Assembly (NCBI RefSeq): GCF_016904955.1
Contig: NZ_JADIKE010000035.1
Location: 248,001-312,000 of the forward strand
Direction: 5' to 3'
DNA length: 64,000 nt
From: Dyella flava
Lineage (GTDB): Bacteria; Pseudomonadota; Gammaproteobacteria; Xanthomonadales; Rhodanobacteraceae
The notes under the pieces were generated by a model, which was given only the letters and a program-made list of their open reading frames with translations, made no database searches and was not told the DNA's origin. This document shows, in pieces, positions 25,888 to 28,262 of the stretch. The translations under genes and the position numbers were made by a program. Position 1 is the first letter of the stretch, and every line of letters starts with the position of its first letter.

Positions 25888-26013
25888 GGTTCGTATCGCT
25901 AAAAGCGTAATACTTGCGGCATAGCGGCACAACCAGTTGACGTATAGCCCCTACCGTGCAGACACCCGCCTGCGGCCTTGCACCATACGCTCATTGCCCC
26001 CATCACACCGCGC

Positions 26014-26817
26014 ATGCCGACATCCAACCTCGCTCAAGCCGTCTTCCTCGAAGGTCCGGACGCCACCGCCTTCGCGCACACTCAATTTACCAGCCAGGTC
26101 ACGGCCCTGCCCCAAGGCCAGTGGCAATTCAGCAGTTGGCTCGATGCACAAGGTCGCGTACGCAACCTGTTCCATCTTGCACGACTGAGCGATGAGCAAC
26201 TACTGGTGATTTTGCGTGGCGGCAATGCAGCAGATTTTGTTGAAGCATTGCGTCGTTTCGTATTCCGTTCGCGCGTCAAGCTGCGCGTGGTGGAAGAAAA
26301 AAAGCTGGGCGTAAGCACTGCCCTTCCCGTGCACCTTGTCGACGTAACAGGCGATGTCATTCGATTAGGCTGCGGCTCGCATTCATTGCAACTCGGCGGC
26401 GATGTTGTGGATGACGATACATCGCAACTTGCACAACTACGCGCAGGCTGGCCGTGGCTGCCAGACACCGCATTGAACGAACTGCTTCCGCCTTCTTTGT
26501 CATTGCATCGACTCGGCGCTGTTGCTTTGGACAAAGGCTGCTACCCGGGCCAGGAGCTTGTTGCACGTTTGCATTATCGCGGCGGCAACAAGCGTCATCT
26601 GCATCGCATTCAACTTTCGAAAGCCGTTGCAGAGGGAATCGAGTTGCGTCGTGATGATCGCGAGTTCGTACGATTGCTTACTGTAATTTCACACAATGAC
26701 ATCATCGAAGCACTTGCAGTGATGACCGATGAGACAGCGAACAACATCACGCAAGGTACGGAAAACATTAGTGATGATGGTGTCGCGATTCAGCTGTTGC
26801 AGCGCTGGTCAGATTGA
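26014..26817 (+). CDS. ygfZ: Folate-binding Fe-S cluster maintenance protein YgfZ
   Basis: A 267-residue GcvT-like protein with the YgfZ signature KGCYPGQELVARLHYRG, whose Cys is the essential residue. YgfZ uses a tetrahydrofolate derivative to help repair or assemble Fe-S enzymes. It is divergent from the SDHAF4/sdh operon, whose SdhB is itself an Fe-S protein. Start could also be the ATG at 25978; both lack a strong ribosome-binding site. Confidence 0.88.
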   Translation: MPTSNLAQAVFLEGPDATAFAHTQFTSQVTALPQGQWQFSSWLDAQGRVRNLFHLARLSDEQLLVILRGGNAADFVEALRRFVFRSRVKLRVVEEKKLGVSTALPVHLVDVTGDVIRLGCGSHSLQLGGDVVDDDTSQLAQLRAGWPWLPDTALNELLPPSLSLHRLGAVALDKGCYPGQELVARLHYRGGNKRHLHRIQLSKAVAEGIELRRDDREFVRLLTVISHNDIIEALAVMTDETANNITQGTENISDDGVAIQLLQRWSD

Positions 26818-27257
26818 TTTCGGCAACATGGAACCCATGTTTGCAATGTGAGCAATTTGTGAATTGAACTCGCCAGGCACTTGCAAAGACGGAAAAGGAC
26901 CACTAGATTCCGCCAACACTTTTTTAGGCACCCACCAGCCCGCAGGGTGCCCACATACGCGACGAACCGGAGGGGTCCGGATCGGCGCGACCCGGCAGAA
27001 GCCTTGCCGGTGGACAACTCGCCGTATGCGCGAACGCGCTGCATGTATGGCTTCAAGCCCGCAGCGTAATTGCCAACTAGATGGCGGTCGACATCGGACA
27101 TGTCGATCGATTTCGCCACGTGATCGTGGCTAACCGTTAGCGCCACAAGTTTCGGTGCTGGCGATATATCCAGGTGGAACGGTCTGCCCGCCCGTCCACC
27201 GCAATCGCGTCAAGGCATGCATGTGCTGCCTTTACGTGCTGCAAACTGGAGGCAGGT
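26818..27257. ncRNA. Hairpin-dense intergenic region, possible structured RNA
   Basis: This 440-nt gap has no supportable gene but holds a run of short perfect hairpins. They are 26927-26951 (GGCACCC/GGGTGCC), 26967-26980 (CCGGA/TCCGG), 26992-27010 (CCGGCA/TGCCGG), 27028-27039 (GCGCG/CGCGC), 27049-27059 (GGCTT/AAGCC), 27089-27105 (CGACAT/ATGTCG), 27115-27130 (GCCACG/CGTGGC) and a palindrome at 27129-27141. Such density in about 215 nt suggests a folded RNA. Strand and ends are unknown. I considered 6S RNA but could not assemble its long bulged rod. Confidence 0.35.
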
Positions 27258-27692
27258 ATGAAACTTTCCATGTTGTTGTGGCTGATGTCCGTACTGCCCC
27301 AACCGCTCGCGGACCAGACTTGTCTGGCGACCACCGTCTATCTGGAAGCACGTAGCCAGTCGACGGTCGGTCAGATGGCTGTGGCAGAAGTTGCCATGCG
27401 TCGACGCGAACGCGGTCAATGGGGCGGCACCGTATGTGATGTGGTGAAGTCACCGCATCAGTTTGCGCTCACCACAACCCCTCTCACCCAAGAGATCGAT
27501 AATCTCGCTGCTTTCCAGAAAGCGTGGGATATTGCAGGCAAATCGATCACCAACTGGGATCTTCCCGCCGACGAGCGTCGCTTTTTCGTGCCGCATGCAG
27601 ATCACTTCGCTACCGTGTCGGTCGCGCCCGCGTGGTCGCGCAACCACAGCGCCGTCACCATCGGCGACCACAAGTTCTACTCGATCAATTGA
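27258..27692 (+). CDS. Secreted SleB-like cell wall hydrolase
   Basis: The ATG at 27258 has GGAGG upstream. The 144-residue product begins with a signal peptide (MKLSMLLWLMSVLPQPLA). A Hydrolase_2/SleB-type domain follows: CLATTVYLEARSQSTVGQMAVAEV contains the catalytic Glu of the family, then CDVVKSPHQFALT. Such enzymes act as lytic transglycosylase-type peptidoglycan hydrolases in the periplasm. Two Cys (CLATTV and VCDVV) are placed as in homologues. A strong terminator follows. Confidence 0.85.
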   Translation: MKLSMLLWLMSVLPQPLADQTCLATTVYLEARSQSTVGQMAVAEVAMRRRERGQWGGTVCDVVKSPHQFALTTTPLTQEIDNLAAFQKAWDIAGKSITNWDLPADERRFFVPHADHFATVSVAPAWSRNHSAVTIGDHKFYSIN

Positions 27693-27708
27693 CGCATAAA
27701 TTTTCGAC

Positions 27709-27738
27709 AAAAAAAGGCCCTCGATCGAGGGCCTTTTT
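27709..27738. terminator. Bidirectional intrinsic terminator
   Basis: GGCCCTC-GATC-GAGGGCC (27716-27733) flanked by an A-run on the left and a T-run on the right gives a canonical terminator on both strands. It serves the SleB-like gene and the convergent glycine-zipper gene at 27795. Confidence 0.92.
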
Positions 27739-27794
27739 ATTTCCAACGCATTCTCTAAATAGACGTCTAAACATCTATTCAATAGAACCGAAAA

Positions 27795-28262
27795 TCAACG
27801 CGGATACACCAGATTGTTGCTGATCACGACATAGTCGCCGGGACGCACGCCAGGATTGGGTACTTGCGTAACCGTCGCGTACTGACCATTGTCGAGACGA
27901 ATCACGATCTGCCACGCCGGCACCGTGCCGCCCGGCTGGCTGTTCTGCGAGCCGATCGCATTACCGACTGCGCCACCCGCCACTACACCAACCACGGTGG
28001 TCGCCGTATTGCCACGACCATGGCCCATGGTGCTGCCGAGCAGACCACCCGCCACCGCGCCGATCACCGTACCGAGCGCAGCGTTATTGGTGCCCTGCTG
28101 CTGGATATAAATCTGCTGCACCTGCTGCACCACGCCGCAACTCTGGCAGCCCTGGTAACCGTAGGTCGTCTGACCCCGATAAACCGGCTGAGTCTGGCAA
28201 CCGGTGAGGGCCGCGATACCCACCAGCAATGCCGCCATCACACCGAACTTGCCTGATTTCAT
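27795..28262 (-). CDS. Glycine-zipper 2TM lipoprotein (SlyB-like)
   Basis: The ATG at 28262 starts a 155-residue lipoprotein: signal peptide with lipobox LTGC near residue 22, then a glycine-zipper stretch (GTVIGAVAGGLLGSTMGHGRG and VVGVVAGGAVGNAIG). The C-terminal part (VIRLDNGQYATVTQ, GVRPGDYVVISNN) resembles outer-membrane lipoproteins of the SlyB/PcP group, which support envelope integrity. It lies 28 nt behind another glycine-zipper gene, probably co-transcribed. Confidence 0.85.
   Translation of the reverse strand: MKSGKFGVMAALLVGIAALTGCQTQPVYRGQTTYGYQGCQSCGVVQQVQQIYIQQQGTNNAALGTVIGAVAGGLLGSTMGHGRGNTATTVVGVVAGGAVGNAIGSQNSQPGGTVPAWQIVIRLDNGQYATVTQVPNPGVRPGDYVVISNNLVYPR

Follow-up and report, generated by a model that had tools for sequence, protein, structure and literature searches.

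In a 64,000-nt stretch of Dyella flava DNA (the window), a run of short hairpins at positions 26927–27141 lies between two genes, which raises the question of what these hairpins form and what they do there. According to sequence and Pfam comparisons, the gap at 26818–27257 separates a YgfZ-like gene (25978–26817, Pfam GCV_T) from a SleB-like cell wall hydrolase gene (27258–27692, Pfam PF07486 Hydrolase_2, E 2e-13), both on the + strand. The latter is the presumed regulated gene, and its product looks like a peptidoglycan hydrolase that by appearance is exported. Dyella is a member of the Rhodanobacteraceae, with which family f1 of the compared genomes was equated by inference.

Hairpin excess and conservation of the gap

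The original prediction counted eight perfect stems in the interval. We counted non-overlapping perfect stems with loops of 3–20 nt by a greedy procedure in 26927–27141 and in 500 shuffled sequences of equal composition. The interval contained nine stems of 4 bp or longer, where the shuffles averaged 6.4 (10/500 shuffles reached nine), six of 5 bp or longer (average 2.9; 5/500), and five of 6 bp or longer (average 0.9), a count that no shuffle reproduced (0/500). The claimed excess is therefore real, whereas the figure of eight varies with the definition of a stem. Folding of both strands gave a similar picture. The + strand folded at −91.2 kcal/mol (z −2.29), with 2 of 200 dinucleotide shuffles equally stable, and the − strand showed a somewhat weaker excess of stability (z −1.98; 7 of 200 shuffles).

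Open reading frames of 62–118 aa overlap the interval. In a rough test that ignores indels the + frame was open in 9 of 61 homologues and the − frame in 19 of 61, and the 118-aa ORF on the − strand was without a Pfam match. A protein-coding explanation of the interval was rejected on these grounds. The earlier statement that no coding frame explains the stems is thus good in substance, although overlapping frames do exist.

The gap itself is conserved. Using blastn with its 440 nt, matches were obtained in 32 of 61 genomes: all 16 of the genus, among them that of the window, 16 of 21 from other genera of the family, and 0 of 24 from other families. The gap measured 433–490 nt in 27 of 32 loci, those with both flanking genes placed, even though the flanking proteins drop to 36–59% identity outside the genus. 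Conservation extends from about 26881 into the first sleB codons, and the promoter-like site, the ribosome binding site and these codons form one conserved block with the hairpins. The interval 26927–27141 is therefore too narrow and covers only the central part of a larger element. Two outcomes that would have refuted the original prediction, as many stems in shuffled sequences and a gap without conservation, were checked and did not occur.

Helices and covariation of the predicted leader

The element is predicted to be a structured 5′ leader RNA of sleB of about 340 nt (26916–27257, + strand), as judged from conservation, covariation and synteny. The analysis of covariation began with 100 leaders, of which 75 were left after redundancy was reduced at 90% identity. 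Ten Luteibacter-type sequences were then left out because the register of hairpin H2 differs there (when they are retained H2 shows 44 A–C cells), which gave 65 sequences for tree counts. Columns absent from the window's own sequence were removed. Since column mutual information in the 75 sequences mainly reflected differences between lineages, with helix pairs making up 4 of the top 50, changes were counted on a tree. Tool-made alignments A1, A2 and A3 took in 28 of 31, 28 of 30 and 31 of 31 sequences, respectively.

On the tree of 65 sequences the structure collected 93 compensatory double changes, compared to 3, 5, 6, 6, 7 and 9 for versions with the 3′ partners slid by 1–3 positions, a comparison in which the structure has an advantage because it was predicted from the same alignment. 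Breaking events were also more numerous, 274 against 143–212 for the slid versions, because more pairing exists to break. In a 28-sequence alignment of the 3′ half 96.4% of the cells pair, and 90 two-sided cells stand against 4–18 in slid versions (0/500 shuffles). The secondary structure is thus backed by covariation, and the folded RNA that was one option of the original prediction is supported; its role as the leader of the downstream gene had been missed. The other option, a chain of DNA binding sites, received no support, since the gap contains short repeats that do not resemble each other and the stems conserve pairing rather than sequence.

All 93 double changes fall within H1, H3, H4, H5, H6, H7, P8 and P10, and none in H2, the promoter region or the Shine-Dalgarno pairings. 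All of these elements are on the + strand. H1 (26927–26951) is a hairpin of variable sequence with 12 double changes, located at 26931–26950, 26934–26947 and 26936–26945, and its pairs often break as well. H2 (26958–26989; CGCG-A-CGA-A-CCGGA-GGGG-TCCGG-A-TCG-G-CGCG) is the most conserved block and is nearly invariant except in Luteibacter-type sequences. Its support is conservation, since the 65 sequences show 0 double changes against 7 breaks. In L031 and other Luteibacter-type leaders H2 occurs in another register while the P8 pairing is kept (GGTAG/CTACC in L031). The next hairpin, H3 (CCGGC/GCCGG, 26992–27010), has 9 double changes and 7 breaks. The variable hairpin H4 (27037–27066) has a perfect 6-bp stem in the window's sequence and is weak among relatives, with 2 double changes versus 42 breaks. 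H5 (27085–27109), which carries a GGA loop in 37 of 65 sequences, shows 8 double changes, 45 one-sided changes that keep the pair and 28 breaks.

Two helices, H6 (GCCAC/GTGGC, 27115–27130; 6 double changes) and P8 (GGTGG-ACGG/CCGT-CCACC, 27173–27200; 8 double changes), together have 14 double changes and no breaks in 65 sequences; in the 28-sequence alignment 100% of the P8 cells are paired. Between them lies H7 (27135–27163), which has 29 double changes and 38 breaks and reaches beyond the 3′ end of the original interval; its loop is of the CACAAGTTTC type in most members. P8 is followed by P9/P10 (27201–27242), consisting of GC/GC closing pairs that are invariant in the 28 sequences and a variable stem, P10, with 19 double changes and 48 breaks. 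The Shine-Dalgarno sequence of sleB, GGAGG at 27248–27252, is invariant in 31/31 aligned sequences. Two candidate anti-Shine-Dalgarno strands were found. The upstream one, UCCA at 27169–27172, pairs with UGGA at 27247–27250 in 98.2% of the cells of the 28-sequence alignment, without covariation. The second one, UUUCCA at 27265–27270, spans codons 3–5 of sleB and appears in the consensus fold, again without covariation; UCCA within these codons is present in 52 of 75 leaders and absent in 23.

The strand of the RNA can be judged from mismatch types. H6 and P8 together contain 10 G–U and 0 A–C cells in the 65 sequences, a bias consistent with a + strand RNA. For all counted helices the numbers are 209 G–U versus 100 A–C cells, which is weaker evidence because of the 100 A–C cells and because one constant G–U pair supplies 64 G–U cells in the 75-sequence count. 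Taken together, both the RNA structure and its + strand orientation are well supported.

Distribution and relation to known RNAs

Two covariance models were used to search the 299 genomes of the order, R2 for the 3′ part of the leader and R1 for H2–H3. R2 matched 63 genomes, which were 62 of the 76 family members and one weak case outside (E 0.0045), and each matching genome had a single match; nothing was found by R2 in the remaining 14 family members. Strong R1 hits were almost confined to the family. At E 0.1 R1 matched 192 of 299 genomes, including many weak matches in other families, and hits above about 1e-6 were treated as chance. One outside hit was below that value (G275:C17:35513–35569, E 5e-7), and the same genome has at least two weaker ones. 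R1 missed the family members G016 and G021, and its best match in G117 was far from sleB. Relatives of sleB occur in 60 of 121 genomes of the order and in 16/16 of the family members with weak or missing model hits, i.e. the 14 without an R2 match plus G016 and G021. Three genomes of the family in which R2 found nothing (L150, L151 and L152) carry an identical hairpin, GAGCGACTGCCGGGGTGGCAGACGC, upstream of sleB, with outer stems that differ yet can pair. This hairpin may be a diverged H2.

A pattern based on the P8 block retrieved 85 stretches from GTDB 220, and the 80 of these that were listed belong to Dyella, Rhodanobacter, Luteibacter, Frateuria and metagenome bins. Wherever enough DNA was available, a sleB start followed 60–140 nt downstream of the block (79/79 loci), so that the leader has one constant, same-strand location upstream of one gene. 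The upstream gene was ygfZ in 74 of 77 loci with enough DNA; the three exceptions, L086, L104 and L136, are all Frateuria records. The Frateuria-type locus L027, on a contig as long as that of L104, has the leader and sleB with no ygfZ match beside them, unlike the other genera. Since leader and sleB stay together at loci that lack ygfZ, the leader keeps company with sleB and not with ygfZ.

Rfam searches gave no match up to E 1 for 26800–27300 and only tRNA in the whole window. Among 17 relatives there were four sub-threshold hits, none within the leader, and 20 further loci, mostly of other sleB groups, gave one, outside the leader. The lack of a match to 6S, SRP, RNase P or tmRNA noted in the original prediction was confirmed, and these families, ydaO-yuaA and the rest of Rfam were rejected as identities of the leader. 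Literature searches, mostly outside subscription journals, gave no paper that appeared to concern this leader among the matches listed. As many soil bacteria related to Dyella conserve the leader and Rfam lacks it, it is probably an RNA control element that has not been described before, and we place it as a new family among the structured cis-regulatory leader RNAs, which are a known kind.

Riboswitch-type cis-regulatory leaders are the general kind to which such an RNA can be compared. Like them, the sleB leader is a long, conserved and structured 5′ leader of one gene that ends at the ribosome binding site and for which alternative Shine-Dalgarno pairings are possible. Unlike them, it is without a known ligand or Rfam match and was found in one bacterial family and with one target gene. 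The c-di-AMP riboswitch (ydaO-yuaA, RF00379) likewise precedes cell-wall hydrolase genes, but none of the leaders compared with Rfam matched it. Orthologues of sleB in the order's other families are also preceded by long gaps, yet these leaders could not be aligned with that of Dyella. For one of these families, f2, 18 leaders were examined, of which 14 were placed by a start pattern and aligned. They resemble the Dyella leader in having a long gap, a conserved hairpin block and a ribosome binding site, whereas they cannot be aligned with it by eye, its sequence was not found in the leaders examined, and R1 and R2 gave no convincing match. In 9 of the 14 aligned f2 leaders the hairpin is followed by GCCTCCCCATGACGCC, and in a tenth by a version with one change (carriers L173, L180, L184–L187 and L189–L192); L165, L171, L175 and L177 differ at this position.

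Predicted transcription and possible control of sleB

A promoter-like site on the + strand consists of TTGCAA (26881–26886), a 17-nt spacer and TAGATT (26904–26909). It was read from the sequence and is conserved in the alignment, and would place the transcription start near 26916. Most of the 80 further loci, 72 in number, show a promoter-like pattern at a similar distance, the pattern being drawn from these same sequences. A generic scan for sigma-70 promoters and terminators reported none in 26400–27800; the same scan missed the intrinsic terminator downstream of sleB at 27716–27738 (+ strand), which has a 7-bp GC-rich stem followed by a T-run and which our own script located at 27716–27733. 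Directly upstream of the promoter-like site, at 26848–26863, there is a direct repeat GTGAGCAATTTGTGAA with two GTGA elements 11 bp apart. A strict pattern for it matched 41 of 70 relatives, and a response regulator may bind there.

A search of 71 leaders for an intrinsic terminator ahead of sleB gave nothing, and one was present after sleB in 56 of 62 cases. With a terminator directly behind it sleB looks monocistronic, and we infer from the sequence that the leader is co-transcribed with it. Conservation at the nucleotide level passes the ribosome binding site into the first sleB codons. Codons 2 and 3 are Lys AAA in 72 of 74 and Leu CTT in 73 of 74 sequences, both minority codons in three genes of the window (AAA 8/34 Lys, CTT 17/111 Leu). 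Because codons 17, 20 and 23 equal them in uniformity, the conservation of codons 2–3 is suggestive only.

These observations led to a working model for the leader. An RNA would start at the conserved promoter-like site just past ygfZ on the + strand, run into sleB without meeting an intrinsic terminator, and stop at the terminator after sleB. The leader helices would fold largely independently of each other, with P8 to P10 forming a junction beside the Shine-Dalgarno sequence. GGAGG could then pair with the UCCA that directly precedes P8 or, in those many members that have it, with UUUCCA within sleB codons 3–5. The two pairings would be mutually exclusive and either would hide the ribosome binding site, with some trigger acting on the upstream hairpins; a metabolite, a protein, temperature or a small RNA are candidates. 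Because of these two possible pairings, the most likely role of the leader is to set or switch translation of the hydrolase. Overall, we think it likely that the hairpins make up the core of a structured 5′ leader RNA that acts in cis and has this function. The dose of a peptidoglycan hydrolase needs careful control by the cell.

The energetics of the gating step were lukewarm. Forcing the upstream UCCA pairing had a median cost of 3.9 kcal/mol and was free in 7 of 75 leaders, whereas the coding-region pairing cost 1.6 kcal/mol and was free in 10 of 52. The accessibility of the Shine-Dalgarno sequence was 0.20 compared to 0.26 in 157 control genes (p 0.03), a slight difference among related sequences, and a smaller control of 9 genes gave p 0.08. 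The pairing with the upstream strand is kept but invariant, and its effect on the energy is small. In view of these tests, gating of the ribosome binding site by the leader is our best guess and not a result.

Other explanations would give the hairpins a different meaning. GC-rich DNA readily folds and open frames overlap the interval, as for chance hairpins or a decayed gene, but the stem excess in shuffle tests, covariation beyond slid and shuffled controls and the loss of the frames among homologues make this hardly credible. It is also quite improbable that the RNA is a stand-alone, trans-acting small RNA that lies beside sleB by chance while sleB uses another promoter. Independent hairpin modules, the high conservation of H2 and a promoter-like site of its own would suit such an RNA, whereas the lack of a detected terminator before sleB, conservation that continues into the first codons, the 79/79 linkage to sleB and the single R2 match per matching genome argue for a leader.

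The remaining alternatives keep the leader and differ in how it would work. Binding of a protein such as RsmA/CsrA to GGA motifs, both those in hairpins and the one at the Shine-Dalgarno sequence, appears unlikely. GGA is present at the Shine-Dalgarno sequence in 65/65, in P8 in 64/65 and after H3 in 47/65 sequences, and RsmA is reported to act on the hrpG 5′ UTR of Xanthomonas, a long 5′ UTR with GGA motifs in the same order of bacteria (PMC3937308). RsmA may act on the sleB leader too, but a hairpin loop (H5) presents GGA in just 37 of 65 sequences there and the GGA of P8 lies mostly within the stem. We regard as very improbable an RNA thermometer, in which an imperfect Shine-Dalgarno helix would melt on warming: UGGAGG/UUUCCA with two G–U pairs could form, but the pairing energies are marginal, and the roughly 250 nt of structure conserved upstream would be superfluous for such a device.

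Peptidoglycan hydrolases may damage the very cell by which they are made, and how their level is restrained is a standing question. The sleB leader, being large and without an Rfam family, may also be a candidate for a new ligand-binding RNA. A wider reading, possible though rather unlikely, is that it represents a new class of large riboswitch-like sensor RNA of about 340 nt with at least seven helices, which would read an envelope or peptidoglycan signal and control a lytic hydrolase in the Rhodanobacteraceae, and which would have diverged counterparts upstream of sleB in further families of the order. A strongly conserved leader tied to one hydrolase would offer a direct handle on the control of hydrolase output.
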